A stretch of DNA of 64,000 nt from Microbacterium sp. SSM24 (GTDB taxonomy: Bacteria > Actinomycetota > Actinomycetes > Actinomycetales > Microbacteriaceae): assembly GCF_025989145.1 (NCBI RefSeq), contig NZ_JAPDNQ010000001.1, positions 992,001 to 1,056,000 on the forward strand, given 5' to 3'. The notes under the pieces are model-generated. The model had not been told where the DNA came from. It saw nothing but the letters and a program-made list of their open reading frames with translations, and ran no database searches. Numbering within the stretch: the first letter of the stretch is position 1; every line of letters begins with the position of its first letter. Positions 22,409 through 63,261 of the stretch are shown here, in pieces. The position numbers and the translations under genes are program-made.

Positions 22409-25201
22409 TCAGCGGACTCGCGCCTCGCCGGTCAGCCGGATGTCGTCGGACGATGAGCCGACGTACACCGGGAGCCGCCCGGACGGAGTGCGCCAGCGAT
22501 CGCGGTCCACGTCCCAGTACGACAAGGATTCCGGCGAGAGCGTCACCGTCACGCGTCGGCGTTCTCCGGGTCGCAGTTCGACCTGTGTCCAGCCTGCGAG
22601 CGCCTTCCCCGCCGTCTCGACCTGACGCGTGGGGAGATGGCCGACGTAGACCTGCACGGTCTCGATTCCGGCAACCTTCCCGGCGTTGCGAACGGTCACC
22701 TCGACCTCCAGCTTCTTCCCCTTGCCATTCGATCCCTTCGAGGCCTTCACCTGCAGGTTCGCGTACTCGTAGGTGGTGTACGAAAGTCCGTGACCGAACG
22801 CGTACTGCGGCTCGATCCCGAATTCCTCGTACCCGCGATAACCGACGAAGATCCCTTCGGTGAACTCCTGATTCACGCCGTCTCCGGGATACTGCTCCGG
22901 CGAGCTGACCGGAGTGCTGCCTTCGTCGACCGGGATGGTGATCGGCAGGCGGCCGGACGGATTCACGTCACCGAACAGGATCCGCGCGATGGCGTTGCCC
23001 TGCTCCTGCCCGCCGTACCAGGCCTGCAGGATCGCCGGCACTCCGCTCTCCCACTCGGATGTCTGGATCGCCGCGCCCGAGGTGAGGACGACGATCGTGC
23101 GGGGGTTGGCCGCCGCGACCTGCCGGATGAGCTCCTCCTGACCGTTCGGCAGATCAAGATCGGGCCGGTCCCCTCCCTCGCTGGAGTAGTCGCGGACGAC
23201 CACGATGGCCGCCTGCGAGTCGCGGGCGAGCGCCGCCGCCGCGACAGCCTGCGGCGCCACGACGCCTTCGGGCGGAGTCCAGCCGAGTTGGAACGTGGGT
23301 CCCGCGTCGGGCACCCCCGACTCGACGGGGTAGGCGAACTCCACTCGCAGGTCGTACTCGGTGCCGCCGGTCAGGTCCACCCTCGCGGTCGTGACCTGGG
23401 TCGTCGGGGTGCCGACCGTGGTCGCGACCGGCTCGTCGTCGAGGAACACGGTCGAGGACCCGTTGGTCGCGATGGACAGCTCGTACATGCCGTCGACCGG
23501 GGGCGTGAGCGTGCCCGTCCACCGCACCGAGGAATTGCCGTTGATCGACGCCGGTGGCGGGGACAGGTGCGGGGAGTTCGCGTTGAGCCCGCCGAACAGG
23601 AAGAAGCCGCCGTACAGGCCGGCATAAGGCTCGATGCGATCGAGAGCCGGTGTGCCGGAGAGCTCCGTGTTGAGGAAGTACTCCACCCGGAGGCCGTCAC
23701 CCGTTCCGCTGGGCGGCGTCAGGTAGTCCGACGCAATCGGGTCCGGTCCCGGAAGCAGGGCGGCGGATGTGACCGGATCGGTGCCCGGAAGATGGTTCAC
23801 TGCGACGCCGTCCGCTACGCGCGACTGGATTCCCTCGAGCGGACTCACGGTGTATGTCGGCTTGACGGCTGAGCTTCCGCCTCCTTGAACGACGACGTCG
23901 GCATCTGCACCGATGACGGCGATCGACCGCACCCGATCGTCGAGCGGGAGCGCGCTTTCGTTCTTCAGCAGAACCATCCCGCGTTCGGCGATGGCGCGCG
24001 CCTCGGCGCCATGCTCCGCCTCGGGCAGTGGTTCGATCACCGGCGGCAGATCGAACAGGCCCAGTGCGTACATCGGCCGCAGGATTCGCAGCACCGCATC
24101 ATTGATGCGGGACATCGGCACCTCGCCCGCGTTGACCGCGGCAATGAGCGGTCCGCAGAAGAAGCAGTTGCCGGGCTGTTCGTTCGGACTGAAGTTCCCC
24201 GGCATCTCCTGGTCCATCCCGCCGAGAATGGCGGGCACAGTGCTGTGAGTTGCGCCGTAGTCGCTCATCACCCAGCCTTGGAACTTCAGCTGCTGCTTCA
24301 GGATCATGTTGAGCAGTTCGTCGTTCTCGCAGGCGTACGTTCCGCCGACCTTGTTGAACGAGCACATCGCCGATCCCGGTCGACCATCTCGGACTCCGAT
24401 CGCGAACGGCCTCATATAGATCTCCTGCAGCGTGCGCTCGTCGATGACGGCGTTGCCGCCGAACAGCCGGTTGGTCTCCTGCGTGTAGACGTTGTAGTGC
24501 TTGATGTCGCCGATGACCGGATTGGACTGGATTCCCCGCAGTTGCGCGGCGCCGGTGGTTCCACTCAGCAGCGGGTCCTCGCCGAACGCCTCGAACGCTC
24601 GGCCGGCCTGCGCCACCCGCGCGATGTCGACGGCCGGTGACAGCAGCACGTTGTGACCCGTGCTGAAGGCCTCTTCGGCCGCGAGATCGCCGTACTGTTC
24701 GGCGAGCGCGGGCGCCCACGTGGCTGCCAGCGAGATGGGGGACGGCAGCTGTGTCGCGCGCTGTCCGTTCACATCCGGGTTGCCGATGCGGGTTCCTGCC
24801 GGGCCGTCCGCCATCGTGAGCGCCGGGATGCCCAGGCGTTCGATCGGTGCGTTGTAGAAGCCGAAGAAGTTGTTCAGCTCGCCGTGCAGCATGTCGACCT
24901 TCTCCTCGAGGGTCATCCGCTGCAGCATTGCCCGCGCTCGACGAGTCGCCTGCCGGTCCTCGTCCCAGCGGTCTCCCGGGGGCAGGGCCTGAGTGCGGCC
25001 GTCGATGAGCTCCTGAGAGGTGCTGGTTTCGTCGGGGGCCGTGTCGTCAGCGGCGATCGAGGCCGTCGGCAGACCCAGAACAGCGGCGGTGCACAGAGCC
25101 AGCGCGACGGTCGATCCGCGAGTGGAGGCGCGCAATCTCGATCGCCTTCTGAGCGGGGGCGCCGCCGTGTGTGCGCGTGCGGAATCGTATGAGAGCCTCA
25201 T
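22409..25201 (-). CDS. Secreted GH3 beta-glucosidase with PA14 domain
   Basis: A 930-aa glycoside hydrolase family 3 enzyme. Residues 1-50 form a signal peptide with an Arg-rich N-region (RRRSRLR), hydrophobic core and ASIA-ADD cleavage site. The (alpha/beta)8 domain has KHY at 234-236 and the nucleophile Asp314 in MSDYG. A PA14 carbohydrate-binding domain is inserted in the second GH3 domain (about 510-620: RWTGTLTPPVDGMYEL), and a fibronectin-III-like domain ends the protein. ATG at 25201 has GGAAGGA upstream; earlier codons are upstream non-coding. Probably removes glucose from plant glycosides outside the cell. Confidence 0.92.
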   Translation of the reverse strand: MRLSYDSARAHTAAPPLRRRSRLRASTRGSTVALALCTAAVLGLPTASIAADDTAPDETSTSQELIDGRTQALPPGDRWDEDRQATRRARAMLQRMTLEEKVDMLHGELNNFFGFYNAPIERLGIPALTMADGPAGTRIGNPDVNGQRATQLPSPISLAATWAPALAEQYGDLAAEEAFSTGHNVLLSPAVDIARVAQAGRAFEAFGEDPLLSGTTGAAQLRGIQSNPVIGDIKHYNVYTQETNRLFGGNAVIDERTLQEIYMRPFAIGVRDGRPGSAMCSFNKVGGTYACENDELLNMILKQQLKFQGWVMSDYGATHSTVPAILGGMDQEMPGNFSPNEQPGNCFFCGPLIAAVNAGEVPMSRINDAVLRILRPMYALGLFDLPPVIEPLPEAEHGAEARAIAERGMVLLKNESALPLDDRVRSIAVIGADADVVVQGGGSSAVKPTYTVSPLEGIQSRVADGVAVNHLPGTDPVTSAALLPGPDPIASDYLTPPSGTGDGLRVEYFLNTELSGTPALDRIEPYAGLYGGFFLFGGLNANSPHLSPPPASINGNSSVRWTGTLTPPVDGMYELSIATNGSSTVFLDDEPVATTVGTPTTQVTTARVDLTGGTEYDLRVEFAYPVESGVPDAGPTFQLGWTPPEGVVAPQAVAAAALARDSQAAIVVVRDYSSEGGDRPDLDLPNGQEELIRQVAAANPRTIVVLTSGAAIQTSEWESGVPAILQAWYGGQEQGNAIARILFGDVNPSGRLPITIPVDEGSTPVSSPEQYPGDGVNQEFTEGIFVGYRGYEEFGIEPQYAFGHGLSYTTYEYANLQVKASKGSNGKGKKLEVEVTVRNAGKVAGIETVQVYVGHLPTRQVETAGKALAGWTQVELRPGERRRVTVTLSPESLSYWDVDRDRWRTPSGRLPVYVGSSSDDIRLTGEARVR

Positions 25202-25452
25202 CGTCTCGTCCTTCCTTCTGCATGCACACCTGGGGGTGGTGCGCATTACATATGAGGAATAGGCGAGTATTCGATTCGTTGAGGCTCGTCGGGTTCTCGA
25301 CTCGTGCGCGAGTGTACGCCGATCGGGCGAGACCGCAATCCCCCTGGACGACGCGACGAGGCACCGCGTGCTTCCGATGGGGCATCGGGCTGTCACGGAA
25401 CTGCGGTCCGCCCACCGGCCCTACGTCCCGGCGCGCTTGTAGCGTGGGACCC
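25202..25452. promoter_or_regulatory. Divergent intergenic region, GH3 gene and flavoprotein reductase
   Basis: 251 bp without a gene. On the minus strand TATGTAAT (complement of 25247-25254) may be the -10 of the GH3 gene. The inverted repeat CCGATG-GGG-CATCGG (25374-25388) lies 65 bp before the reductase start, and TAGCGT just before the reductase ATG may be its -10, implying a very short leader. Confidence 0.35.
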
Positions 25453-26929: not shown

Positions 26930-27640
26930 CTAGATGGCCGCGACACCGACGGTGAGACCGCCGCACACGTAGAGGGTCTGCCCCGTCACGAACCCCGAAC
27001 GCCCGTCGAGGAAGTAGCCCGCGGCGTGCGCCACATCTTCGGGCGTCCCCAGCCGCCCCACCGGCACCGACTCGACGATCGCTCGCGTGCGCGGGGAGTC
27101 GGACGGGTTCGCCTTCATGAAAAGCTCGGTTGCGATCGGGCCGGGGCCGATCGCGTTGACGGTGATTCCGCGCGCACCCAATTCCAGAGCCCACACTCGC
27201 GTGACGCCGATCAGTCCGGCCTTCGCGGCGGCATAGGCGGTGCGCAGTTCCTTCCCGAGAACTGCGCGGGAGGACATGTTCACGATCCGCCCGAACCCCG
27301 CCGCGGCCATCCCCGGCACGAGCGCCTGGGTGCATTGGATCGCTGCTCGGAGGTTGAGCGCGAACGAGCTGTCCAGGTCTTCCAAGCTCTGGCTCTCGAG
27401 GGATGCCGGGAACACAGCCCCGACGTTGTTCACCAAGCGAGTGACCGGACCGTCCTCCAGCGTCTCCTTCAGCGCGGCCGCTGTGCTGTCGCTATCCGAC
27501 AGATCCGCGATCACCGACCTGCCTGCGACGGAGGCGACGCGGTCGATGACCGTGACATCCCACCCCTGCGCGAGGCCGTGCCGAGCGATCGCGAGGCCGA
27601 TGCCCGCGGCTCCACCCGTGACCAGCAGTCGCTCCACCAT
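26930..27640 (-). CDS. Short-chain dehydrogenase/reductase
   Basis: A 236-aa classical SDR: NAD(P) motif VTGGAAGIG (residues 7-15), NNVG near 80, catalytic Ser in NMSS, and Tyr/Lys in AYAAAKAG. ATG at 27640 has GAGGAGG about 9 bases upstream; the longer frame to 27820 crosses the LysR promoter. Divergent from the LysR regulator at 27796, which probably controls it. Substrate unknown. Confidence 0.9.
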   Translation of the reverse strand: MVERLLVTGGAAGIGLAIARHGLAQGWDVTVIDRVASVAGRSVIADLSDSDSTAAALKETLEDGPVTRLVNNVGAVFPASLESQSLEDLDSSFALNLRAAIQCTQALVPGMAAAGFGRIVNMSSRAVLGKELRTAYAAAKAGLIGVTRVWALELGARGITVNAIGPGPIATELFMKANPSDSPRTRAIVESVPVGRLGTPEDVAHAAGYFLDGRSGFVTGQTLYVCGGLTVGVAAI

Positions 27641-27795: not shown

Positions 27796-28740
27796 GTGGA
27801 ATTGCGAGACATCGAGGCATTCGTCGCGGTCGCCGAGGAACTCCATTTCGGTCGTGCTGCGGCCCGCCTGCACATCTCGCAGCCGCCCTTGAGCAATCGC
27901 ATCCGACAGCTTGAGGCCGACCTGAAGGTCTCGCTCTTCACTCGCAGCACTCGCAGCGTCACCCTCACGGATGCCGGGCAGCGACTTCTCGGCCCCGCCC
28001 GGCAGGTCCTGACCCAGCTCTCCCTCACTCGCGCCGTCGCAGAGGCGATCGTCGCCGGCGAGACCGGCCGGGTCCGCGTCGGATTCGCCGGCGCCTCGAC
28101 ACAGCGATCCCTCCCGATCCTGAGCCGTGCGATTCGAGAGCTCCACCCGGGGATCGAGCTGCAACTGCAGTCGCAGGCGTACGTCTTCACAGCGATGGAG
28201 ATGCTCCGAGACGGGTCACTGGATCTCGCCTTCGCCCGGTTGCCCTCCCCCGACCCCGACCTCGATTTCCGGGTGATCGAGGTGGAGGAGATCGTCTGCG
28301 CATTGCCGACGGGCCACCGCCTGGCACGGCGGGAGAGCGTGCGTCTGACGGACCTGCGCAACGAGGGCTTCATCAGCCTTCCCGACGACCAGGGCTCGAT
28401 CCTCCAGGCCACGATGTCCGCGCTCTGCGTGACAGCCGGCTTCACTCCGCGGGTGACGCAGTACGCGCCTGACTCCGCGACGGCACTCGCACTCGTCGCC
28501 GCGGGGGTCGGCGTCACGATCACGCTGAGCACGGTGCAGCCCGTCCAGCCGATGGAGGTCGTGTACCTTCCGCTGGAGGACATCAGTCCCAGCCACATGT
28601 TCGCCACTCTCGCGTGGCGACGCGCGGATCCGTCCCCGGCGCTTCGCACCGTGCTCAAGGCTTCGGAGGGCTCACTGCCGACGCCTGACCTTTCCCGCTT
28701 CGCTAATAATCCCTTCCTTATCGGTATTGGACAGGAATAG
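27796..28740 (+). CDS. LysR-family transcriptional regulator
   Basis: A 314-aa regulator with an N-terminal winged helix (LHFGRAAARLHISQPPLSNRIRQLE, about residues 16-40) and a LysR substrate-binding domain. The GTG at 27796 has GGGGAGG upstream. Its C-terminal ~30 residues extend past the usual end. Closely related in layout to the CatR-like protein, so an aromatic or muconate-like effector is plausible (inference). Confidence 0.9.
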   Translation: MELRDIEAFVAVAEELHFGRAAARLHISQPPLSNRIRQLEADLKVSLFTRSTRSVTLTDAGQRLLGPARQVLTQLSLTRAVAEAIVAGETGRVRVGFAGASTQRSLPILSRAIRELHPGIELQLQSQAYVFTAMEMLRDGSLDLAFARLPSPDPDLDFRVIEVEEIVCALPTGHRLARRESVRLTDLRNEGFISLPDDQGSILQATMSALCVTAGFTPRVTQYAPDSATALALVAAGVGVTITLSTVQPVQPMEVVYLPLEDISPSHMFATLAWRRADPSPALRTVLKASEGSLPTPDLSRFANNPFLIGIGQE

Positions 28741-28888: not shown

Positions 28889-29353
28889 ATGGCCACTCTG
28901 CGTCTCCATCACGTGAACGTCACCTCTGACGACATGAGTATCCTCACGAAGTTCTATGGGGAGGCTCTAGGCCTCACGCTTCTCCCGTCGCCGCCGATGA
29001 TCGCCACCTCCGCGAGCGGTACCGACGACGGAGACGCAGCGTGGGACGACAGCGCCAAATTCTTCGAGGCCGGCGATCCGACGGAGCTCCAGATCCACGC
29101 CACCAAGCGCCAGCCGTACCTCGCCGCCCAGGAGGGGCATTCGGTCAACCCTCTCATCCAGGGCCACTTCGCGTTCCGCACCGACAACATCGAAGAGATC
29201 AAGCAGCAACTGACCGACAACGGCATCCCCTTCGACGACTGGGGGATCTGGTCGGTCGAGGGCTGGCACCAGATCTTCCTCACCGATCCTGCAGGCAACA
29301 TGATCGAGATCCATCAGGTCATGCCTTCCGCCGGCGACACCGAGCCCGGGTGA
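28889..29353 (+). CDS. VOC-superfamily (glyoxalase/extradiol-type) protein
   Basis: A 154-aa vicinal-oxygen-chelate fold protein: beta-alpha-beta-beta-beta repeats starting LRLHHVNVT (candidate metal ligand His8), a middle QGHFAF (second His), and DPAGNMIEIHQ at the C-terminus (Glu ligand). Metal-dependent lyase, isomerase or dioxygenase; the reaction is not predictable. GAAAGG precedes the ATG. Followed 22 bp later by the cyclase-family gene, so probably one operon. Confidence 0.85.
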   Translation: MATLRLHHVNVTSDDMSILTKFYGEALGLTLLPSPPMIATSASGTDDGDAAWDDSAKFFEAGDPTELQIHATKRQPYLAAQEGHSVNPLIQGHFAFRTDNIEEIKQQLTDNGIPFDDWGIWSVEGWHQIFLTDPAGNMIEIHQVMPSAGDTEPG

Positions 29354-29375: not shown

Positions 29376-30365
29376 ATGCCCTCCGACCAGTTCCCCTCCT
29401 ACCGCGAACTCGGCGACCGCTCGGGCGCCCTCCGCGGCACGGCGTGGGGACTGTTCGGCGAGGGTGACCAGGTCGGCACGCTCAATTTCCTGACATCCGA
29501 GCGGGTTCGCGCCGCGCTCGGCTCGGTGCGCAAGGGGCTGCTCCTCAACCTGAACCTTCCGCTCGACGCGTTCGACCCGCCGCTCATCGCCCACCGGGGG
29601 GCGATCGAGCACCACGTGTTCGGGTTGAACGAGTTCCACCGGGACGAACGGATCGACAACCTGTTCACGCAAGCCTCGACGCAGATCGACGGGCTGCGGC
29701 ATTTCGCCCACCCCGATCACGGGTTCTACAACGGCGTCCCGGGTGATCGCCTGATCGCCGGAACCGGGGACCTGGGAATCCAGGCGGTGGCGCAACGGGG
29801 AATAGTCGGCCGCGGAGTCCTCGCCGATGTCGCGCGCTACCGTGATGCCGCGGGTCGGCCGATCGAGCAGGATTCCCCCGAGCCCATACCCGTCTCCGAC
29901 CTCACGGCAACCCTGCGCGAGCAGGGCACGACGCTGCTCCACGGAGACATCCTGCTCATCCGCACGGGGTGGCTCGAACACATCCGTCGCGCCGGGGCGA
30001 CCCGCGCTGATCCCCTGGCGAGTCCGGGGCTCGCGGCACAGGAGGAGACGGCAGCCTGGCTGTGGGACAACCAGATCGCCTTGGTCGCCGCGGACAACAT
30101 CGCGCTCGAGCCGTGGCCCGCCACGGAGTCGGCTCTGACGACCATCGCGGAGCAGACCGGCCGTCTCGCCCGGTCCTCGCACACCGGCATGCTCCACCGC
30201 ATCCTGATTCCCCTGCTCGGGCTGTCCATCGGGGAGCTGTGGGATCTGGACGCGCTCGCGACCGAGTGCGCGGGCTCCGGGCACTACGACTTCCTCGTGA
30301 CCGCGGAGCCGCTCAACCTCACCGGCGGGGTGGGCAGCCCCGCGAACGCCCTCGCTATCGTCTAA
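29376..30365 (+). CDS. Cyclase-family metal-dependent hydrolase (kynurenine formamidase-like)
   Basis: A 329-aa protein of the PF04199-type cyclase family. The metal motif normally written HxGTHxDxPxH appears in the variant STQIDGLRHFAHPDHGFYNG, as in the longer members of the family found in catabolic operons. Later come DILLIRTGW and DNIALE, also typical. Probably hydrolyses a cyclic ester or amide, possibly opening a ring lactone. ATG at 29376 follows the VOC gene closely. Confidence 0.82.
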   Translation: MPSDQFPSYRELGDRSGALRGTAWGLFGEGDQVGTLNFLTSERVRAALGSVRKGLLLNLNLPLDAFDPPLIAHRGAIEHHVFGLNEFHRDERIDNLFTQASTQIDGLRHFAHPDHGFYNGVPGDRLIAGTGDLGIQAVAQRGIVGRGVLADVARYRDAAGRPIEQDSPEPIPVSDLTATLREQGTTLLHGDILLIRTGWLEHIRRAGATRADPLASPGLAAQEETAAWLWDNQIALVAADNIALEPWPATESALTTIAEQTGRLARSSHTGMLHRILIPLLGLSIGELWDLDALATECAGSGHYDFLVTAEPLNLTGGVGSPANALAIV

Positions 30366-32105: not shown

Positions 32106-32545
32106 CGACCCGTCGCGATCGTCGTGCTGGCATCGACCAGACGCTTCTCCAGCTGCGCAAGGGTCGCCTCGGCCGCTGCGAGGTCCTCCGGACCCGGCAG
32201 GAGTTCGCCAAGGACGGGATCGACCACCTGGACCGCTTCGTTCAGCGCTCGGCGACCGGCTTCCGTGAGCGTGATCAGAGACGACCGCCGGTCTGCGGGA
32301 TGAGGGCGCCGCAGGGCGAGACCCGACCGCTCCAGGCGGTCTGTGAGCTTGCTCGCAGCACCCATCGTGATTCCGAGTTCGTCACTGAGTTCGTGGACTC
32401 GCCCGCGACCCCCGTGACGATCCAGGATGCGCAGGGCCATCACGTTCGCCATCGACTCGCCACCCGCTGCGATCAGGGCGCGCTCGAGCCGATTCCACAG
32501 GTGAGTTTCGTAGCTGACGAGGCGAGAGAAATAGTCCATGGACAT
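32102..32545 (-). CDS. MarR-family transcriptional regulator
   Basis: A 147-aa winged-helix repressor with LSDELGITMGAASKLTDRLERSGL and the wing DRRSSLITLTEAG. ATG at 32545 has GGGAGG 7 bases upstream; a second ATG at 32539 is possible. Divergent from the OpuC-type importer. Two matching operator candidates lie in the gap. A phenolic or quinone ligand would be typical (family knowledge). Confidence 0.9.
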   Translation of the reverse strand: MSMDYFSRLVSYETHLWNRLERALIAAGGESMANVMALRILDRHGGRGRVHELSDELGITMGAASKLTDRLERSGLALRRPHPADRRSSLITLTEAGRRALNEAVQVVDPVLGELLPGPEDLAAAEATLAQLEKRLVDASTTIATGR

Positions 32546-32577
32546 GGCGAACCTCCCGATGCCCGAAGTGTATTCCT

Positions 32578-32641
32578 CGGAACCAACTTCCGGGAAGAGC
32601 TCGGTCGCTCCTATGATTTCAATGTCGGGGAAATAGGTTCC
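32578..32641. promoter_or_regulatory. Two MarR operator candidates between divergent genes
   Basis: CGGAACCAACTTCCG (32578-32592) and, in inverse orientation, GGAAATAGGTTCC (32629-32641), both GGAA-N5-TTCC; as GGAACCWAYTTCC they agree at nearly every base. Centres are 50 bp apart, one near each divergent gene, fitting autorepression plus control of the importer. Confidence 0.6.
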
Positions 32642-32679
32642 AGGGAATGAATCTGACTCCCGCCCCGTTTGGAGTGAGC

Positions 32680-53705: not shown

Positions 53706-54652
53706 GTCAGCGCCCCACCCGCGTCGTGCGGGCTTTCCGCGTCGGCGATCCACTCGATCAGGTCGTCCAGTGTGCGCCTCGCGCTCGGGTCGCCGGGCAG
53801 ATCGAGGTAGCCATGCTGGGTGCCGAGCGCGGTACGCGACGAGTGAGGATGGCGCAGTGCGGCGAGCTTCGCGCCGAAGTCCTCGCCCGATGCGCGCATC
53901 TCGTCTGCCTCTGCGTTGACGATCAGGATGGGCGGGAGTCCGGCGAGGTCGCCGTCGGCGGGAAACGCGTACCGGGCCTTCCCGAGCGGTTCGCCCGCGT
54001 AGTTCGTGTTGAATCCGCGCACCACTCCCGGCGTGAATCTCACCGGCGGCGGGTTCTCGTCCAGGGCCGCTCGCAGCTCGTCGCTCAGCGCCGGCAGCTC
54101 CGCATGCAGCAGCGGGTAGACGAGCACGAGCGAGCGCGGCCCTGCAGCCCCCTCGTCCCGCAGTCTCTGCGCCACGGCGGTGGAGAGGTTGGCGCCCGCA
54201 CTCGCTCCACCGAGGTGCAGTCGTTCTGCGTCCACCCCGAGCGGGCGATCAGGTCCCGCAGCCCACTTCCACGCCGCCAGGACATCATCGACGGGCACCG
54301 GGTACTTCACGCCGTGCAGCGCCTTGCGATAGTCCACCGACATCACGGGCACCCCTCGGGACGCGATGTACAGCGACACCCAGTGCGCTTCCGGCATATC
54401 GAGACTGCCCCCGACGAACCCCCCGCCGTGCACCCAGACCAGTCCGTCGACCGGATCTGCGGTCGAGCCCGTATAGATCCTCGCCACTACGGCGCCGTGC
54501 GGCCCGTCGATCGCCACATCCTCCACGCGCACGCGGGCGAGTGATGGATCGGCCCCGACCAGCGCGGCGGTGTCGAGCCCAGGGCGTGGGTCCGTCGGAG
54601 GACCATTCACCTCGAGATTGCGAATGAACTCCGCGACGTCGAACTCGACCAT
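53702..54652 (-). CDS. Alpha/beta hydrolase, hormone-sensitive-lipase family
   Basis: A 316-aa esterase: HGGGF (oxyanion hole), YRKALHGVKYPVPVDD, nucleophile elbow GGASAGAN, late Asp (NAEADEMR) and His (LGTQHGYLD). ATG at 54652 has GGAGG 10 bases upstream; the ATG at 54661 is too near the site. Follows the importer receptor gene across a strong hairpin and overlaps the serine hydrolase gene. Confidence 0.9.
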   Translation of the reverse strand: MVEFDVAEFIRNLEVNGPPTDPRPGLDTAALVGADPSLARVRVEDVAIDGPHGAVVARIYTGSTADPVDGLVWVHGGGFVGGSLDMPEAHWVSLYIASRGVPVMSVDYRKALHGVKYPVPVDDVLAAWKWAAGPDRPLGVDAERLHLGGASAGANLSTAVAQRLRDEGAAGPRSLVLVYPLLHAELPALSDELRAALDENPPPVRFTPGVVRGFNTNYAGEPLGKARYAFPADGDLAGLPPILIVNAEADEMRASGEDFGAKLAALRHPHSSRTALGTQHGYLDLPGDPSARRTLDDLIEWIADAESPHDAGGALT

Positions 54653-54712
54653 GTTTCGCATTCCTCCTCGACACCGAACCGATCGGACCGCTGGCGCCAC
54701 GCGCGACAGCGG

Positions 54713-54758: not shown

Positions 54759-56285
54759 CTATCCGACGGGCGTGATGTCGAACAGCGACGGCACGATGTT
54801 CGTCGCGTTGAGAGTCACGTCCGTGACCTCGGGGTTGTTCGCGTACCCGGCGCTGACCCGGTAGTAGGGAGCGAACCAGCCCTGCTCGACGATGTACGCG
54901 TTGAGCTCCTTCGCCTTCTCCACCTGAGTCGCCTCGTCGCCATTCTGGATCTCGGAGATCAGCTGATCGGTCGTCTCGTCGCCGTACTTGAAGGGGTTGA
55001 ACGGCGCCGTGCGCGAGATCATGAACTGGATCAGCTGCCAGTCGGCGTTGGTCTCGAGCTGCATCGGGACCGCGGCGTACTTCGGGGCCGTCAGATCGGC
55101 GATGTAGTTCTCAACCGGCGTGTCGACCCAGGTCACGGTGATCCCGACGTCCTCGAGCTGCTGCGCGATGAGGGGGAACTGGGCAGCTCCCAGCACCGCC
55201 GTGCTCGACATCTCGATGCTGAGCCCGTCGCCGTAGCCGGCTTCGTCCAGAAGCTCGCGCGCCTTGTCGGGGTCGTACGTGTAGAACTCGTCCAGCTCCG
55301 GGTCGTAAGCCCCGGAGGCCTTGTTGAAGACCTGCGTCGTCACGGTGCCGTGTCCGAGCTGGAGCGCCTCGAGAAGCCCCTCCCGGTCGAGGGCGAAGTT
55401 GATCGCCTGACGCACCTTCACATCGCCCAGGGCTGGGTTCATCTCGCCCGCGCGATCGAGCAGGAGCAGACCCTGGAAGTTCAGCTCGCTGGACTGGATC
55501 TCGAAGCCCGCCGCCTCGATCTGGTCGAGATTGTTGTTGTCGGTGAGGACCATCGTGTCGACCTCGCCCGCCTGGACGGCGTTGACGCCGGCCGTCGGGT
55601 CTGCGAGCACGTTCATGGTGACCGTCTCGTAGTGCTGCACGTCGGGGTTCCAGTAGTCGGGGTTCTTGGTGAACACGTAGCTTGTCCCCGTCGTGGTGGC
55701 ATCCTGATCGAGGATGTAGGGTCCCGAGCCGATCGGGTTGGTGTCGGCATCCTCGGCGTCGAACATCGCCGGGGCGGCGATCAGACCCGCTTCACGGCTG
55801 AGGTACGCGAGCAGGGCGGGATCGGGTGCGCTCAGCGTGAGCACGACGGTTGTGTCGTCCGGCGCTGCGATCGACTCGACGTTGGCGAGATCTCCCGCGT
55901 ACGCACCCCCGCCGTCCTTGAAACGCTCGAGGTTCTGCTTGACGACGTCGGCCGTCAGATCCGTGCCATCGGTGAACGTCACGTCGTCCCGAAGGGTGAG
56001 GGTCAGCTCCTTGTTGTCATCCGAGTAGGTGTACTCGGTGGCGAGGTTGGGCTCGACGCTGCCGTCGGATGCGTTGTAGAGCAGAGTGTCGTACACGGCC
56101 TGGTAGTAGAGCGCCCGGTTTCCCCACTCGGCCTGCGTCGTGTCGAACGTCGCGGGAGCGAGGAACTGGCCGATGACGACGGAATCGGGTGCCGTGTCAT
56201 CGTTCGGCTCTGAGGTGGCGGAGCAACCCGCCAGCGCAAGGGAGGCCACCACAATGGCAGCGGCCATGGTCTTCCAGCGGAGCAT
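54759..56285 (-). CDS. ABC importer substrate-binding lipoprotein, oligopeptide (family 5) class
   Basis: A 508-aa SBP family 5 receptor. Lipobox LALAGC with Cys21 after a short signal. PNLATEYTYSDDNKELTLTLRDDVTFTDG and VRQAINFALDREGLL are family marks. GAAGGG precedes ATG 56285. Its permeases and ATPases are encoded at 59601-63261, and both transcription units share the 25-bp operator. Members of this class import peptides or oligosaccharides and beta-glucosides; the nearby GH3 favours the latter. Confidence 0.92.
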   Translation of the reverse strand: MLRWKTMAAAIVVASLALAGCSATSEPNDDTAPDSVVIGQFLAPATFDTTQAEWGNRALYYQAVYDTLLYNASDGSVEPNLATEYTYSDDNKELTLTLRDDVTFTDGTDLTADVVKQNLERFKDGGGAYAGDLANVESIAAPDDTTVVLTLSAPDPALLAYLSREAGLIAAPAMFDAEDADTNPIGSGPYILDQDATTTGTSYVFTKNPDYWNPDVQHYETVTMNVLADPTAGVNAVQAGEVDTMVLTDNNNLDQIEAAGFEIQSSELNFQGLLLLDRAGEMNPALGDVKVRQAINFALDREGLLEALQLGHGTVTTQVFNKASGAYDPELDEFYTYDPDKARELLDEAGYGDGLSIEMSSTAVLGAAQFPLIAQQLEDVGITVTWVDTPVENYIADLTAPKYAAVPMQLETNADWQLIQFMISRTAPFNPFKYGDETTDQLISEIQNGDEATQVEKAKELNAYIVEQGWFAPYYRVSAGYANNPEVTDVTLNATNIVPSLFDITPVG

Positions 56286-57109: not shown

Positions 57110-59536
57110 TCAGCCGACCCTCCACTCCAGCGCGAGCGGCAGGTCCTCGACCGATGCGCCGACGCGAAGATCGTAGGCCCCGGGTTCGACTGTCCACCCC
57201 TTCGACCAATGCGCGAACCGACGGTCGGGGAGCCGAACTGTCGCGGTGGCGGTCTCTCCTGCGCCGGCTGTGACGCAGGCGAAGCCCACGAGCCACCGCT
57301 GGGGGCGCTCTACCGCGGAGTCACTGCGCTCGGCGTACACCTGGATGACCTGTTTGCCCACGCGGTCACCAGTGTTCGAGACCGAGACGACGACGGCGTC
57401 ACCTTCACGCCGCGCGGTCTCCCAGGACCACGTGGTGTAGCCCAGCCCATGCCCGAACGGGAAAGCCGGAGCCGCCCCCGACCTCAGCCAGGCACGGTAT
57501 CCGACGTGCAGGCCTTCGCCGTACTCGAGCACGCCGTCGACCGGTGCGACCTGTGACACAGGCACATCCGCGAGCGCGGTGGGCCACGTGGTCGGCAGGC
57601 GACCGCCGGGTTCTGACGCGCCCATGAGCACGTCGGCGATGGCGTGTCCGAACTCCTGCCCGCCGAAGTACCCCTGCATGATGGCCGCGACCTCGCCCGC
57701 CCACGGAAGCGCCACGGGCGACCCGGCGTTCACCACCACGATCGTCGGGGTGCCGGTGGCTGCGACAGCGTGCACGAGATCGTTCTGGCGCCCCGGGAGG
57801 TCGATGCTGTCGCGGTCGTATCCCTCCGACTCCACCTTCGAATTCGTGCCGACGACGATGACAGCGACATCGGATGCCGCCGCGATGGCCACAGCACGGG
57901 CGATGAGCTCGTCCGGGTCGGCCCGCTCGGGCGCGGTACCCAGCGTCACGCTCAGAGCGTCGATGGGCGAGTCCTCCGCGGTCGCCAGCGAGACCTCGAC
58001 GCGCAGGTCATAGGTCACGCCCTCGATCACGTCGAGGGCCGCCGTGGCCGAGGGAGGGCTGAGGAACGCGGCGCCGAGATCGGTGCCCTCCACCACGGGG
58101 GCCTCGTCGACGAGAAGCGCGTCGTCGACGAAGATCTTGGCGGGACTCGCGCTGGCGAATCCGAGTTCGATCGCCGTAGTGGCATCAGCGGTGTAGCGGG
58201 TACGCAGCACGACGGTGTCCGTCGGTCCGAGCGGCACGTCACCGCCGAACCACACCAGAGCGGTCGAGCGGCGATCCTCGCTGAAGATCTCGCTCCCCGC
58301 TGCGTCGTGGAATCCGACGCGAACGCCGGCCTCGCCGGTGACGGGGTTGGTGAGTCGCTCGAGCGGAATCTCCACGACACCCTCCTGCACGATCGCACCG
58401 ATCTCGTACCGTACGTCCTCGCCGGATGCTGCAGCCCGGATGGCCTCGAACGGCGAGACGACGGCTTCGGGGATCACGGTCGCGCTGCCGCCGCCCTGGG
58501 TTCGCGCCTCGCGCGCATTCTGGCCAATGACCGCGACGTGTCTCAGGGCCGCGGCATCCAATGGCAGCACGCCGTCGTTCTGCAACAGCACGACGCCCTC
58601 GATCGCGGCCTCGCGTGCGAACGCTCGACCGTCGAGGGCAGCGGGTTCCACCGGGGTCGAGATGCCCAAGGCGCCGACGCGCTCCGCGAGCAGGAGAAGT
58701 CGCAGCACCTTCCGGTCGACGTCCGCCTCATCCGCGCGACCGTCTCGGATCGCAGCGGCGAGCTCGCCCCACGCTGCGGAAGGCCCCGGCATCGCGAGAT
58801 CCTGCGCCGCGGCGACCGCGCCCAGCGACCGGACCGCCGTCCAGTCGCTGATGACGACGCCGTCGAAACCCCATTCCGAGTTGAGCGGAGTCTCGAGCAG
58901 GTCGCTCTCGGTCATCGTGGTGCCGTTGACGGCGTTGTAGGCGCTCATGATCGACCAGGCGCCCGCCTCGATGGCGCGCTCGAACGGAAGGAGGTAGAGC
59001 TCGCGCAGCGCTCGCTCATTGACCCGGACATCCACCGTGAAGCGGTCGGTCTCGGAGTCGTTGGCGACGTAGTGCTTCGGAGTTGCGGCCACCCCGTTGT
59101 CCTGCAACCCGCGCACGTATGCGGCGGCGAGTTCGGCGCTGAGTTCGGGATCCTCGCTGAAGCACTCGAAATGACGGCCGCCGAGTGGCGAGCGGTGGAG
59201 GTTGATCGTCGGCCCGAGCACCACATCAACGCCCTTCCGGCGCGCTTCGGATGCTGCGGCCGCACCGTAGCGGTAGGCGAGCTCGACGTCCCACGACGCC
59301 GCGAGAGCGGAGCCCGACGGGAGGTTCAGCGACGGCTCGCGCTCGTCCCACCGGGGACCGCGGACGCCGGCTGGCCCATCCGACAGCGTCATCGCACGGA
59401 GGCCGATCTCGGGGATCGGCACGGTCGTCCAGAAGTCCGCGCCCTGTACGAGCGCCACCTTCTGCTCGAGGGTGAGGCGCTCGAGCAGCGGGACGAGATG
59501 CTGCACGGTTCGGGGATGGGCGGCAGCGTGGGTCAT
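57110..59536 (-). CDS. Cytosolic GH3 beta-glucosidase
   Basis: An 808-aa family 3 glycoside hydrolase without signal peptide. SDGPAGVRG (52-60), KHY (154-156), nucleophile Asp231 in VISDW. A PA14-like module is inserted at about 395-520, and a fibronectin-III-like domain closes the protein. It is 64 bp downstream of the ABC ATPase gene in the same orientation, so imported glucosides would be hydrolysed inside the cell. ATG at 59536 has no clear Shine-Dalgarno; an AGCGCT-centred palindrome lies just upstream. Confidence 0.93.
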   Translation of the reverse strand: MTHAAAHPRTVQHLVPLLERLTLEQKVALVQGADFWTTVPIPEIGLRAMTLSDGPAGVRGPRWDEREPSLNLPSGSALAASWDVELAYRYGAAAASEARRKGVDVVLGPTINLHRSPLGGRHFECFSEDPELSAELAAAYVRGLQDNGVAATPKHYVANDSETDRFTVDVRVNERALRELYLLPFERAIEAGAWSIMSAYNAVNGTTMTESDLLETPLNSEWGFDGVVISDWTAVRSLGAVAAAQDLAMPGPSAAWGELAAAIRDGRADEADVDRKVLRLLLLAERVGALGISTPVEPAALDGRAFAREAAIEGVVLLQNDGVLPLDAAALRHVAVIGQNAREARTQGGGSATVIPEAVVSPFEAIRAAASGEDVRYEIGAIVQEGVVEIPLERLTNPVTGEAGVRVGFHDAAGSEIFSEDRRSTALVWFGGDVPLGPTDTVVLRTRYTADATTAIELGFASASPAKIFVDDALLVDEAPVVEGTDLGAAFLSPPSATAALDVIEGVTYDLRVEVSLATAEDSPIDALSVTLGTAPERADPDELIARAVAIAAASDVAVIVVGTNSKVESEGYDRDSIDLPGRQNDLVHAVAATGTPTIVVVNAGSPVALPWAGEVAAIMQGYFGGQEFGHAIADVLMGASEPGGRLPTTWPTALADVPVSQVAPVDGVLEYGEGLHVGYRAWLRSGAAPAFPFGHGLGYTTWSWETARREGDAVVVSVSNTGDRVGKQVIQVYAERSDSAVERPQRWLVGFACVTAGAGETATATVRLPDRRFAHWSKGWTVEPGAYDLRVGASVEDLPLALEWRVG

Positions 59537-59600: not shown

Positions 59601-60446
59601 TCAGGCGACGTCAGCCGTCGCCTCGGCGTCGATCAACGCGCGTCGGGCGAGGCGGCGCTCCGCCTGCTTGTCCGGGTCGGGGACCGGCGAGGCCATGAAG
59701 AGTCGCCGTGTGTACGGGTGCTCGGGCTGCGAGGTGACGCGGTCGCCGTCGCCGGTCTCGACGATCTCCCCTCGATACATCACGGCGACTCGATGACTGA
59801 TGTGCCGCACCACCGCCAGGTCGTGGGTCACGAACAGATACGCCACCCCTGTGCGGTCCTGGATCTCGATGAACAGGTCCAGCACGCGGGCCTGTGTCGA
59901 CAGGTCCAGAGCCGACACCGGCTCATCGCACACGATGAGCTTCGGATCCAGCGCAAGCGCTCTCGCGATCGCGATTCGCTGCCGCTGGCCGCCGGAGAAC
60001 TCCCGCGGCAGGCGCCCCGCTGCGTTGGAGGGAAGTCCCACGCGGTCGAGGAGGTCGTGAACACGCGCCTTCGCCTCCTTTGCGACGACACCCCGCGCGG
60101 TGAGGGGCTCGCTCAGGATCTGCTCGATCGTCAGCGACGGGTTCAGCGACGAGTACGGATCCTGGAAGACGACCTGGATCTCGCTGGACAGCTCCCTGCG
60201 CTGCCGCCGGCCGAGGTGGGTGATGTCCTGCCCGTTGTAGACGATGGAGCCTCCGGTGACGGGCGCGAGCCCGAGCACGGCCCGCCCCAGCGTGGTCTTG
60301 CCGGATCCGGACTCGCCGACGAGGCCCACCGTCTCACCCGCCCTGATGTCGAGGGAGACGCCCTTGAGGGCCTGGAACGGCTTGGCCCGGAAGCCCTTAC
60401 CCGGGTACGCCACTTCGAGGTCCGCCACATCGAGCAGCATGCTCAT
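59601..60446 (-). CDS. Oligopeptide-class ABC importer ATP-binding protein (DppF/OppF type)
   Basis: A 281-aa ATPase: Walker A GESGSGKTT (44-52), EIQVVFQDPYSSLNP, signature FSGGQRQRIAIARALA, Walker B LIVCDEPVSALD, and the C-terminal HPYTRRLFMASPVPDP typical of DppF. ATG at 60446 overlaps the stop of the fused gene (ATGA). ATG 60440 is also possible. Confidence 0.93.
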   Translation of the reverse strand: MSMLLDVADLEVAYPGKGFRAKPFQALKGVSLDIRAGETVGLVGESGSGKTTLGRAVLGLAPVTGGSIVYNGQDITHLGRRQRRELSSEIQVVFQDPYSSLNPSLTIEQILSEPLTARGVVAKEAKARVHDLLDRVGLPSNAAGRLPREFSGGQRQRIAIARALALDPKLIVCDEPVSALDLSTQARVLDLFIEIQDRTGVAYLFVTHDLAVVRHISHRVAVMYRGEIVETGDGDRVTSQPEHPYTRRLFMASPVPDPDKQAERRLARRALIDAEATADVA

Positions 60447-62323
60447 GAATGTGCTCCTTCCGAGCGCGTCGTGATCAAGGGCGAGCGGGCGGGACCTTCT
60501 TCGAGGATCGCGTCCAGCAGCGACTGCGTGTACGGATGCGAAGGCGTGCCCAGAATCGTGCGTACGGGCCCCTGCTCGACGAACAGACCCTGCTGCATGA
60601 CCGTGACCCGATCGCACAGGTCGGCAACGACGCCGAAGTTGTGGGTCACCAGAAGCATCGCCATGTGACGCTCGGCCTGAAGATCACGCAGCAGATCGAG
60701 CACCTCTGCCTGCACCGTCACGTCCAGGGCGGTGGTGGGCTCGTCGGCGATGATGAGATCGGGGTCGGTCGAGACCGCACCCGCAATGAGCACGCGCTGC
60801 GCCATCCCGCCGGAGACTTCGAACGGGTACGCGTCGAACGTGCGCCGCGGATTCGGGATGCCGACGCGTTCCAGTAGCGCGAGCGACTTGTCGGTCGCGT
60901 CCTTCTTGCTGAGTCCGAGGTTCTTCCTCAGCGGCTCGACCAGCTGGTACCCGATGCGGAACGACGGGTCGAGGTTCGACATCGGCTCCTGCGGAATGTA
61001 ACCGATCCGCTTGCCACGCACGCCGGCATAGACGCGTTCGGCAGCTCCTGCGAGCTCGGAGCCCTCGTACCGGATGGACCCGCCCGAGACGTGCCCACCA
61101 CGGGGAAGCAGGCCCAGTACCGCGAATGCGGTCTGCGTCTTGCCGGACCCTGACTCGCCGATCAGACCATGGATCTCGCCCCTGCGCACGTCGAGCGAGA
61201 CTCCGTGTACGACCTCGATGTCGCTGCCTTCGGTCTGCTGGTAGGCCACGCGAAGATCGCGAATCGCGAGCACCGGCTCCTGCGGTCGCTGCGACGTCTG
61301 CTCGTCGTCGGCGTGGACGACGGTTCCGGGGACGACGGGCAGCTCCGACGAATCGTCGATCGGCTCGGAGTCGGCACCCCCCGTCGCGAATGAGGTGGTG
61401 ACCGCCGCGATCGATCCCGTCGCCGTCGTCACGGCGCGTCGGCGGCGCCGCCGGACGTTGGTGGTCCGCTCCAGCACGTCCCGCATCGCGTTTGCGAGCA
61501 GGGTCAGCGCGATCGATGTCGTCGCGATCGCGAGGGATGGCCACAGCATGAGAATGGGCGCGCGGTAGATGTTCGTGAAGCCGTCGTTGAGCATCGAACC
61601 CCACGTCGGAACAGTCATGTCACCGAGGCCGAGGAATTCCAGGCCCGACTGGATGGCGATCGCGATGCCGGCGATGATCGCCGTCTGGATGATGATCGGT
61701 GCCCTGACGACCGACAGGATGTGACGTCCGATGATGCGCACGTCGGACAGACCCGACACTCGAGCGGCGTCGACGTACAGCTCGCTGCGCACGCCGACGA
61801 CGGTGGCGTACACGAGGCGGTAGTAGGCGGGCGCCAGGATGATCCCGAAGATCAGCATGGCCCACCACACCGATGGCCCCAGCACCGCCCGCGCCGCGAT
61901 CAGGATCACGATGCCGGGCAGTGCCATGACGAGCGCGGTCACCCAGGATGCGACGCTGTCGAACCAGCCCTTGAAGTACCCGGCGACAAGACCGCCGATG
62001 ACGCCGATGACAAGAGAGGTGACGACGGCCACGGATGCTGCGGCGAGTGTGACCGACGTGGCCCAGAGCAGCCGCGACAGCACGTCACGACCCGCGCTGT
62101 CGTTGCCCAGGGGGTGCTCCGCGCTGGGTGGCGCGAGCACCAGCTGGATGGATGCCTCGTTCGGATCGTATGGGGCGATGAACGGTCCGATGATCGCCAT
62201 CAGCACGACGAACCCGAGATAGAGCAGCGCGACCAGACCCACGGGCTTGCGGATCAGGCGACGGAACAGCGATGTCGTGACGTGAGGAGTCGGGATCGCC
62301 GGAGGCACTTCGATCGCGGTCAT
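60443..62323 (-). CDS. Fused permease-ATPase of the oligopeptide-class importer (DppC-DppD)
   Basis: A 626-aa fusion. Residues 1-290 are a DppC permease with about six membrane segments and the coupling loop YVDAARVSGLSDVRIIGRHILSVV; 291-350 is a basic, then acidic linker; 351-626 is a DppD ATPase with Walker A GESGSGKTQ (389-397), VSGGMAQRV and LIIADEPTTALD. The reading frame is continuous. ATG 62323 overlaps the DppB stop. Such fusions are known in actinobacteria. Confidence 0.92.
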   Translation of the reverse strand: MTAIEVPPAIPTPHVTTSLFRRLIRKPVGLVALLYLGFVVLMAIIGPFIAPYDPNEASIQLVLAPPSAEHPLGNDSAGRDVLSRLLWATSVTLAAASVAVVTSLVIGVIGGLVAGYFKGWFDSVASWVTALVMALPGIVILIAARAVLGPSVWWAMLIFGIILAPAYYRLVYATVVGVRSELYVDAARVSGLSDVRIIGRHILSVVRAPIIIQTAIIAGIAIAIQSGLEFLGLGDMTVPTWGSMLNDGFTNIYRAPILMLWPSLAIATTSIALTLLANAMRDVLERTTNVRRRRRRAVTTATGSIAAVTTSFATGGADSEPIDDSSELPVVPGTVVHADDEQTSQRPQEPVLAIRDLRVAYQQTEGSDIEVVHGVSLDVRRGEIHGLIGESGSGKTQTAFAVLGLLPRGGHVSGGSIRYEGSELAGAAERVYAGVRGKRIGYIPQEPMSNLDPSFRIGYQLVEPLRKNLGLSKKDATDKSLALLERVGIPNPRRTFDAYPFEVSGGMAQRVLIAGAVSTDPDLIIADEPTTALDVTVQAEVLDLLRDLQAERHMAMLLVTHNFGVVADLCDRVTVMQQGLFVEQGPVRTILGTPSHPYTQSLLDAILEEGPARSPLITTRSEGAHS

Positions 62324-63261
62324 GACAGTCGCACCTTCGGGTTGAGCGCAGCCTGCGCGAGGTCGATCAGGAGATTGACGATGATCACGATCACGGCGAA
62401 CGCCACGACGAGGCCCATCATGACCGGGATGTCGCCCTGCACCCCCGCCTGGACGGTGAGCTGGCCCATGCCGGGGAGGGCGAAGACCTGCTCCACGATG
62501 ACGGCACCGCCCAACAGGCCGATGAACTGGACCGCCAGGATGGCCAGGGCCGGTCCGCCGGCGTTGCGCAGGACATGCCTGTATACGACACTGTTGGCGC
62601 TCAGCCCTCGACTGCGCAGCGTGCGCACGTAGTCGCGCGACATCGCGTCGATCATCGAGCCGCGGATCTGCTGGGTCACCGCGGCGATCGCCCCGAGGGA
62701 GAGAGCGGCGATGGGGAGCGTGACCGACGAGAGCCATCCGGTGAAGGACTCGGTCAGCGGCACGTAGCCGGTGGCTTTGAACCAGTGGAGGTCGATCGCG
62801 AAGATCAGCACGAGGTACAGCGCGATCAGGAAGCCCGGGATCGCGAAGCCGAGCACGGAGATGACCTGCACCGTCGCATCCACACCCCCGCCGCGGCGCG
62901 CGGCGAGCACGCCCAGGAGGACCGCGAGGACGGCCGTGACCAGCGTCGTTCCGATGACGATCGACAGGGTCACCGCCACCCGGCCCGAGAGGCTCACCGT
63001 CACCAGCTGGCCGTTGAACCAGGACCGGCCGAGGTCACCGGTGAGGGCATTGGTGAGCCAGTCCCAGTACTGCACGACGAGCGGGCGATTCAGACCGAGC
63101 TCCTCAGTTCTGCGCTGAACCTGCTCGGGCGTCGCGTTCTGGCCGAGGATGCGGCGGGCGACGTTCGCACTGTCGAGATAGAGCAGGCTGAAAGCGAGAG
63201 CCGAGATGACGAAGAGGAGCACGACGCCGGCGATCAGGCGCCTGACGATGAAGATGAGCAT
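62320..63261 (-). CDS. Oligopeptide-class ABC importer permease (DppB type)
   Basis: A 313-aa permease with six predicted membrane segments: N-terminal IVRRLIAGVVLLFVISALAF, extracellular RRILGQNATPEQV loop, coupling loop YVRTLRSRGLSANSVVYRHVLRNA. ATG at 63261 has an AGGAG about 10 bases upstream; the frame up to 63324 is leader. First gene of the importer-GH3 operon, controlled from the operator pair at 63433-63487. Confidence 0.92.
   Translation of the reverse strand: MLIFIVRRLIAGVVLLFVISALAFSLLYLDSANVARRILGQNATPEQVQRRTEELGLNRPLVVQYWDWLTNALTGDLGRSWFNGQLVTVSLSGRVAVTLSIVIGTTLVTAVLAVLLGVLAARRGGGVDATVQVISVLGFAIPGFLIALYLVLIFAIDLHWFKATGYVPLTESFTGWLSSVTLPIAALSLGAIAAVTQQIRGSMIDAMSRDYVRTLRSRGLSANSVVYRHVLRNAGGPALAILAVQFIGLLGGAVIVEQVFALPGMGQLTVQAGVQGDIPVMMGLVVAFAVIVIIVNLLIDLAQAALNPKVRLS

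Follow-up and report, generated by a model that had tools for sequence, protein, structure and literature searches.

We analyzed a stretch of 64,000 nucleotides from Microbacterium sp. SSM24 (contig 1, positions 992001 to 1056000, of a 3.4 Mb genome), here referred to as the window. Its region from 35.8 to 63.3 kb is probably a catabolic island whose substrate is a salicyl alcohol beta-glucoside, probably with an acyl ester as well, and we put the probability of this reading at about 0.68. The intact compound would be taken in by an Opp-type ATP-binding cassette (ABC) importer. One or two intracellular esterases would strip off the acyl group and a cytosolic, BcpE2-like beta-glucosidase of glycoside hydrolase family 3 (GH3) would free the glucose. 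Salicyl alcohol would be oxidized to salicylate by benzyl-alcohol-type dehydrogenases and a NahF-like dehydrogenase. Salicylate would then be activated to salicylyl-coenzyme A (CoA), hydroxylated at C5 and, after gentisate cleavage, led by a mycothiol-dependent route through the familiar end products of gentisate breakdown into central metabolism. The substrate, each of these reactions and the cytosolic site of hydrolysis are what we infer from the sequence. As a best guess we hypothesize that the substrate is salicin or an acylated salicyl-alcohol glucoside, and that salicortin with its cyclohexenone part may be included.

Genes were called with a simple codon-usage caller, and their start sites are approximate. 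Protein families were assigned by Pfam and NCBIfam scans and the closest structures by comparison with the PDB. An earlier, sequence-only reading of this DNA had listed two GH3 enzymes, an oligomer-class importer, three further hydrolases, two benzyl-alcohol-type dehydrogenases, an aromatic aldehyde dehydrogenase (ALDH) and salicylate-gentisate genes; gene calls and family scans showed this inventory to be real, the importer being of Opp type and the two alcohol dehydrogenases (ADH) zinc enzymes. The salicylate-gentisate genes are found at 35.8–48.0 kb together with PaaX, ALDH and ADH1, followed at 48.1–50.9 kb by genes for a TetR, ADH2 and an isochorismatase-like protein. Within the salicylate block neighbouring genes overlap or are separated by at most 106 bases. 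The predicted genes of both parts are:

35809..36411, reverse strand: flavin reductase-like protein (PF01613), also present in 3 of the 4 plain sdg loci described below.
36421..37182, reverse strand: mycothiol-dependent maleylpyruvate isomerase (MDMPI_N domain; TIGR03083 over cut-off).
37186..38022, reverse strand: fumarylpyruvate hydrolase of the FAA hydrolase family (PF01557, 219 bits).
38022..39095, reverse strand: gentisate 1,2-dioxygenase (cupin domains; best match TIGR02272 with only 252 bits against a cut-off of 442).
39202..40302, reverse strand: aryl (benzyl/salicyl) alcohol dehydrogenase 1, ADH1 (best PDB match 5tnx, a zinc alcohol dehydrogenase, followed by the benzyl alcohol dehydrogenase 1f8f).
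40341..41792, reverse strand: salicylaldehyde dehydrogenase, the NahF-like ALDH (best PDB match 4jz6, NahF, E 2.8e-207).
41883..42716, reverse strand: PaaX-type regulator (three PaaX Pfam domains).
42757..44406, reverse strand: SdgA-like aryl-AMP ligase (best NCBIfam match (2,3-dihydroxybenzoyl)adenylate synthase, 586 bits against a cut-off of 724).
44399..46465, reverse strand: SdgB-like ATP-grasp acyl-CoA synthetase (ATP-grasp_5 and Succ_CoA_lig; overlaps with its neighbours of 8 and 14 bases).
46452..48005, reverse strand: SdgC-like salicylyl-CoA 5-hydroxylase, a flavin adenine dinucleotide (FAD) monooxygenase (Pfam FAD_binding_3; best NCBIfam match PRK08255, 394 bits against a cut-off of 1078).
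48084..48674, reverse strand: TetR-type regulator (Pfam).
49105..50205, forward strand: aryl alcohol dehydrogenase 2, ADH2 (72% identical to ADH1).
50236..50889, forward strand: isochorismatase-like cysteine hydrolase (PF00857), present in the fetched stretches of 4 of the 10 islands.

SdgA, SdgB and SdgC are encoded by three overlapping genes (42757–48005) of the right families, an assignment made at the family level and without comparison to the WA46 sequences. The top NCBIfam match of the SdgC-like protein, PRK08255, is a bifunctional salicylyl-CoA 5-hydroxylase/oxidoreductase. The gentisate dioxygenase candidate adjoins the maleylpyruvate isomerase and FAA hydrolase genes, a position which agrees with a gentisate route.

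The part from 50.9 to 63.3 kb carries the hydrolase, a TetR, two esterases and the importer with the GH3:

50920..51717, reverse strand: PcaD-like alpha/beta hydrolase (Abhydrolase_6; TIGR02427 79 bits, below cut-off).
51820..52530, forward strand: TetR-type regulator of the importer/GH3 module (TetR_N).
52545..53705, reverse strand: esterase of beta-lactamase fold, here named EstBlac (PF00144; SVTK at residue 67).
53702..54661, reverse strand: esterase of the hormone-sensitive-lipase type, here named EstABH3 (Abhydrolase_3; GASAG and HGG; family-IV-type).
54759..56285, reverse strand: substrate-binding lipoprotein of the importer, family 5 (SBP_bac_5).
57110..59536, reverse strand: cytosolic GH3 beta-glucosidase, BcpE2-like (best PDB match 7pjj, BcpE2, 657 bits over residues 18–798).
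59601..60446, reverse strand: OppF ATPase (Pfam).
60443..62323, reverse strand: OppC-OppD fused permease/ATPase (OppC_N, BPD_transp_1 and ABC_tran within one protein of 626 amino acids).
62320..63261, reverse strand: OppB permease (Pfam).

The Opp block has a single gap, of 824 bases, which separates the GH3 from the binding protein. Fused OppCD relatives of similar length (517–636 amino acids as called) were also seen in the other modules read. The N-terminus of the cytosolic GH3 is not signal-peptide-like. Its domains are GH3_N, GH3_C with an inserted PA14 and Fn3, the PA14 scoring 22.1 bits and thereby slightly under the Pfam cut-off of 24. The SDW and VESEG motifs, which we take to hold the catalytic Asp and Glu, align to 7PJJ.

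The core points to a salicin-type substrate, since the best match of the GH3 is BcpE2, that of the ALDH is NahF and the second-best match of ADH1 is benzyl alcohol dehydrogenase. Against the PDB the ALDH reached 692 bits with NahF; a vanillin dehydrogenase and another salicylaldehyde dehydrogenase followed with 529 bits. BcpE2 cleaves salicin, which ranks among the best of its measured substrates, with a Km of 0.142 mM and a kcat of 53.2 per s, and its production was maximal on salicin (PMC9426481).

The comparison covered 149 genomes of the genus Microbacterium and a family sample of 398 genomes (not picked for the island, own genome included). Furthermore, a scan for SdgC with one genome per species gave 201 relatives, of which the best 80 were kept. 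SdgC relatives of at least 69% were present in 3 of the 149 genus genomes, namely our own, G087 (strain 2FI) and G023. Six others had relatives of 55–57% and five more had shorter ones of 43–45%. Of the 149 genomes, 48 had a binding-protein relative (E at most 1e-100) and 37 had one of the GH3 (E at most 1e-150). Thus GH3-Opp modules are common in the genus and salicylate genes are rare. An ALDH of at least 69% within 10 kb of SdgC was found at 14 of the best 80 of the 201 SdgC loci.

Apart from the window, ten carriers were read: Microbacterium sp. 2FI, the Microbacterium metagenome-assembled genome (MAG) G023, Labedella phragmitis, Labedella populi, Arthrobacter SPG23, cf158, Leaf337, AK04, G492 and G444. 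They span at least five genera, and the gene order differs between them. All ten carried ADH1 (69–92%), ALDH (75–90%), SdgABC, OppB/CD/F, the binding protein (48–84%) and EstABH3 (46–61%), and a GH3 of at least 49% was present in eight; the GH3 of G492 was 43% identical to that of 2FI. The core is located in one place in seven of them (2FI, the MAG, both Labedella, SPG23, cf158 and G492). Leaf337 and AK04 have sdg/ALDH on one contig and GH3/Opp on another, and the adjacency of the two parts is suggested only by the genes at the contig ends. The inventory of the island is therefore more than a chance assembly, as its core recurs in ten other genomes. Relatives of the TetR regulator at 51820..52530 adjoin the importer or the GH3 in 2FI, Labedella, SPG23, G492 and most generic loci.

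The carriers were found via SdgC or ALDH, and eight named ones among the 14 ALDH carriers of the SdgC scan (2FI, the MAG, both Labedella, SPG23, cf158, Leaf337 and AK04) were extended on GH3 or binding-protein hits, so that the counts for importer and GH3 arise partly by selection. The family sample gives a less biased count. Here, ALDH was present in 6 of 398 genomes (own included), SdgC stood beside it in five of the six and the importer was present too in four (own, the two Labedella and G492). Among 30 SdgC genomes a GH3 of at least 60% was found in 7 of 14 with ALDH and in 1 of 16 without (Fisher p 0.012, with kinship ignored and the 60% line set after seeing the lists).

NahF is an enzyme of the naphthalene pathway. 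As the best match of the ALDH it raises the question whether ALDH and salicylate genes form the lower part of a naphthalene-type pathway. We consider this very improbable: an alcohol dehydrogenase is present in 10 of 10 islands, no ring-hydroxylating dioxygenase was seen among the Pfam-scanned genes of 18–63 kb, and a benzoate dioxygenase alpha-subunit model had no match in the whole own genome at E 0.001, whereas 6 of 14 control genomes were matched.

The islands were compared with 22 contrast loci or genomes: four plain sdg loci, nine generic loci with GH3 and/or Opp, two sdg genomes with GH3-Opp and no ALDH, and seven ALDH carriers without importer. These reads cover stretches of about 5–40 kb and not whole genomes. 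Four of the six genus loci with a 55–57% SdgC were read as plain sdg loci. Each holds PaaX, SdgC, SdgA and gentisate-route genes, and none has SdgB, ADH, ALDH, importer or esterase in the stretch read; one is cut by contig ends. None of the nine generic loci had ADH1, EstABH3 or sdg genes, and among six GH3-Opp loci only a single 29% match to ALDH was obtained. EstBlac relatives of 37–41% were present in 4 of the 6. The other three of the nine, in G043 (Opp, no GH3), G132 (contig end) and G126 (GH3, no Opp), lacked ADH, ALDH, sdg and EstABH3. Around SdgC of G162, G163, G165, G171, G173 and G175 no importer or EstABH3 was found; G162 and G173 were also read at an unlinked GH3. G429 carries ALDH, and sdg, importer and esterase are absent from its contig.

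EstABH3, which was never a selection criterion for genomes or loci, was found in 10 of 10 carriers with importer and ALDH and in 0 of the 22 contrasts. Since it was found only where importer and ALDH co-occur, its distribution ties the importer and the aglycone genes into what would be one function. It also points to an acylated substrate, and no other new evidence speaks as strongly for salicinoids beyond plain salicin. In the salicinoid island proposed by the sequence-only reading, a predicted esterase that would remove the acyl group is thus a fixed member. The island core as one probable functional unit is well supported.

Nevertheless, the region could consist of two unrelated neighbours brought together by accident, a generic module for scavenging plant heterosides (Opp, GH3, EstBlac) and a module for salicyl alcohol and salicylate. 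GH3-Opp modules without sdg genes do exist, one of them running on into a GH43 gene and another into an alpha-rhamnosidase gene. Moreover, the GH3 of the window is of generic lineage, and the sdg genomes G153 and G154 hold GH3-Opp on other contigs (GH3 60% and 54%), there without ADH, ALDH or EstABH3. We regard such an accident as quite improbable. EstABH3 marks the combination, and in a tree covering 30 binding proteins, though neither G492 nor G444, that of the window forms one clade, with support 100/100, with the four other sdg-linked copies from 2FI, the two Labedella and the MAG. Four Arthrobacter binding proteins form another clade (100/100), and both clades lie among generic copies. 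The linkage is also kept across different gene orders in several genera, including runs of one direction which mix both modules. In Labedella the order is sdgCBA-PaaX-ALDH-ADH-binding protein-Opp-GH3 with a regulator as the single opposite gene. In the MAG gentisate genes, sdg, ALDH, ADH, binding protein, Opp and EstABH3 follow in one direction; in G492 the same holds for binding protein, Opp, EstABH3, ALDH and ADH, with the GH3 opposite.

Co-inheritance of the GH3 with the island was dropped, as the island copies do not form one group in the GH3 tree. In Microbacterium and Labedella, where the binding proteins form a clade, the importer thus goes with the aglycone genes and is inherited with them, and the glucosidase seems to be replaceable. 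The island of 2FI fits a replaceable glucosidase: it additionally carries an antiterminator (CAT_RBD and PRD), a beta-glucoside phosphotransferase system (PTS) over cut-off and a GH1 of the 6-phospho-beta-glucosidase type (611 bits, just under the cut-off of 639). TIGR01995, the beta-glucoside PTS model, was matched in 2FI and had no match in the window's genome, for which PTS uptake was dropped as a route.

Several observations weigh against a catabolic island for salicyl alcohol glucosides. NCBIfam cut-offs were not reached by SdgA, SdgC and the gentisate dioxygenase. A gentisyl-CoA thioesterase was not noticed in the gene inventory, no search having been aimed at one. The importer is not universal, as 7 of the 18 known ALDH carriers show none (six without a binding-protein match above 42%, and G429, whose contig of 20.7 kb lacks it). 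About 270 kb separate importer/GH3 from ALDH/sdg in G444, and in MAG G023, which is 83% complete, a GH3 relative is missing at E 1e-150. The GH3 relatives counted above are common in the genus without the island, and the GH3 of the window groups inside generic Microbacterium copies. Furthermore, BcpE2-type GH3s are promiscuous: every heteroside tested was cleaved, and coniferin was a still better substrate of BcpE2 than salicin (PMC9426481). One carrier, L. phragmitis, was isolated from reed flowers; in favour of the reading, L. populi came from surface-sterilised Populus euphratica branches (PMC8696123). Carriers are thus plant-associated and not confined to Salicaceae.

The range of aglycones taken by BcpE2 and the reed isolate would suit another glycoside or ester with the same end as well, such as glucosides of salicylic acid or methyl salicylate, salicylaldehyde glycosides, benzyl glycosides or benzyl salicylate, with ADH and ALDH serving for benzyl alcohol or salicylaldehyde. 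The benzyl-alcohol type of ADH1 and the constant company of EstABH3 with importer and ALDH agree with this too. Such a substrate is unlikely, though not far-fetched. Salicylate glucosides need neither ADH nor ALDH, yet both are present in 10 of 10 islands and in 0 of the 4 plain salicylate clusters, and NahF gives a higher score with the ALDH than do the vanillin or 4-hydroxybenzaldehyde dehydrogenases of the PDB.

A glucoside of salicyl alcohol as substrate invites comparison with known systems. In co-culture, Rahnella OV744 and Pseudomonas GM16 likewise split salicin into salicyl alcohol and a glucose unit, and benzyl-alcohol/benzaldehyde-type dehydrogenases then lead to salicylate (PMC9959693, PMC11708038). 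There, the work is split over two organisms, uptake is by PTS and a salicylate hydroxylase leads to catechol. In contrast, the window has the genes for import, deglycosylation and oxidation in a single genome, with an Opp importer, esterases and a CoA-dependent gentisate route. A GM16-type cluster from salicyl alcohol to catechol is not indicated by the FAD monooxygenase of the island, the one protein of the genome examined for this: with 30.9 bits for TIGR03219, where the cut-off is 446, it is not a salicylate 1-hydroxylase. The bgl operon (beta-glucoside PTS, 6-phospho-beta-glucosidase, antiterminator) handles a salicin-type substrate, and such genes lie inside the 2FI island, whereas the window's genome lacks the beta-glucoside PTS. 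The CoA-dependent salicylate degradation of Streptomyces sp. WA46 was reportedly described by Ishiyama in 2004. Its salicylyl-AMP ligase, CoA synthetase and salicylyl-CoA 5-hydroxylase have predicted counterparts in the window, and its gentisate dioxygenase a candidate one (PMC4600096, PMC3937715); in the window these sdg genes are accompanied by alcohol and aldehyde dehydrogenases, an importer, an esterase and a GH3. BcpE2 of Streptomyces scabiei has the same GH3 domain layout as the window's enzyme, with salicin as substrate and inducer. It is described as serving glucose scavenging, while the GH3 of the window is tied to genes of aglycone catabolism (PMC9426481).

The island is a new combination of known parts. 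In the open-licence PMC literature, as far as its texts were available, we found no single-organism gene set for complete salicinoid use, in line with what the sequence-only reading had supposed, and no paper combining salicin with salicylaldehyde dehydrogenase. Among the papers found, the closest were that on the Rahnella-Pseudomonas pair (PMC9959693) and a study on transfer of the salicyl alcohol pathway (PMC11708038). Genes for salicin catabolism were not a subject of the available part of PMC7465253. Salicin use by bacteria has been presented as cross-feeding, in which one partner takes the sugar and the other the aglycone (PMC9959693), and poplars exude salicyl alcohol compounds in large amounts, which are thought to act mainly against herbivores (PMC11708038). 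If our reading is true, one actinobacterium would combine import, de-esterification, deglycosylation and aglycone breakdown, which would explain how some plant associates could use these compounds alone. EstABH3, the NahF-like ALDH, SdgC and the Opp binding protein together could serve as a marker for finding such organisms, and the question is directly testable in culturable strains such as L. populi.

Ahead of the island the window carries a LivKGFHM-type transporter with PcaIJF at 8.8–16.2 kb (the binding protein Pfam-scanned, the others named from N-termini and order) and PcaD-like, CatA, CatC, CatB and LysR genes at 18.2–22.3 kb (gene calls and Pfam). A secreted GH3 at 22.4–25.1 kb, a set of genes here named module M2 at 26.9–30.4 kb and genes for a medium-chain reductase, MarR and an OpuAC-type ABC importer at 31.1–35.7 kb follow:

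18178..21335, reverse strand: catechol route of PcaD-like, CatA, CatC and CatB (Pfam), an optional partner.
22409..25135: secreted GH3 with PA14 (signal-peptide-like N-terminus; adjoins the catechol genes; shares 34% identity with the cytosolic GH3).
26930..27640, reverse strand: short-chain dehydrogenase/reductase (SDR) of M2 (Pfam).
27796..28740, forward strand: LysR regulator of M2 (Pfam).
28889..29353, forward strand: glyoxalase-fold protein of M2 (PF00903; 77–92% in 6 of 10 island genomes).
29376..30365, forward strand: PF04199 cyclase/hydrolase of M2 (Pfam; 56–76% in 7 of 10 island genomes as read).
31110..35730: medium-chain dehydrogenase/reductase (MDR) reductase, MarR and OpuAC-type ABC importer (Pfam, all but one permease scanned), sometimes co-located with the island.

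One class of compounds had been held to explain all genes between 22409 and 63261, among them the secreted GH3 and a complete catechol route. This is supported for a set of genes that recur together, those for the importer, an esterase and the cytosolic GH3, for the aryl-alcohol and the salicylaldehyde dehydrogenases and for the salicylate-gentisate route; a glucoside of salicyl alcohol, probably acylated, explains them best. The secreted GH3 was dropped as part of the island: in the stretches read, 8 of 10 islands had matches of 31–34% and two had none, compared with 33–35% in six generic loci. The catechol genes are real, are located at 13.5–21.3 kb and thereby outside that interval, and are weakly supported as a member. 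CatA relatives were found in 6 of the 15 ALDH carriers searched, out of 18 known (G171, G173 and G175 were left out). CatA lies near ALDH in our own genome, G492 and G165, within the importer/GH3/M2 cluster in G444, and elsewhere in the genome in G163 and G166. No CatA relative was found in 2FI, G023, both Labedella, G429, G155, G158, G160 and G162, and the route is no fixed part of the island. Relatives of CatA, CatB and CatC adjoin the island in G492 and importer/GH3/M2 in G444. A supply of catechol from benzoyl esters via benzoate dioxygenase was dropped, the model for its alpha subunit having had no match in the own genome as given above.

Module M2 tends to accompany the island. Its cyclase was present with at least 60% in 4 of the 398 family genomes, three of them among the six with ALDH (3/6 against 1/392, Fisher p 7.6e-6, with kinship ignored and the 60% line set after seeing the lists). 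In G492 the cyclase is located far from the island. It is without the metal motif which we presume to be usual for PF04199. Elsewhere M2 also holds a second SDR, a major facilitator superfamily transporter and, in five carriers, a muconate-cycloisomerase homologue. The M2 of 2FI includes such a homologue (of muconate cycloisomerase 3dg3), though no CatA relative was found in the 2FI genome, and the protein may for this reason act on something besides ordinary muconate. Salicortin carries a cyclohexenone part, and it is speculation that M2 acts on its cyclohexenone acid. Complete degradation of acylated salicinoids including this acid, with EstABH3 splitting the ester and M2 opening and oxidizing the ring or feeding the catechol genes, is rather unlikely.

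Relatives of M2 (26930–30365) were seen in the loci L071, L175/L190, L180, L194, L223 and L228. G444 is a Microbacteriaceae genome of 1.6 Mb with 55.6% GC in the 40 kb measured. About 45 kb of it (L226–L229) hold catABC-pcaIJ, GH3, importer, esterases, a CoA-transferase pair adjacent to M2, M2 itself and LivKGFHM, the latter with 75–87% to LivKGFHM of the window; ADH-ALDH-sdg are located elsewhere.

OpuAC relatives of 66–72% were present in the islands of 2FI, the MAG and both Labedella and absent from the other six as read. At the end of the window (63627–63998 and beyond, 193 amino acids) lies a gene related to an NADP/F420 oxidoreductase-like protein, as shown by a Pfam scan of its relative in 2FI. 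It recurs near these genes in several Arthrobacter loci as well as in 2FI and the MAG. Additionally, a second SdgC-like protein (G000:C1:953362-954597, locus L087), 45% to the island SdgC, is encoded within a longer open frame about 38 kb ahead of the window. Weak relatives (27–34%) of the aryl-AMP ligase, PaaX and the cyclase are located near it.

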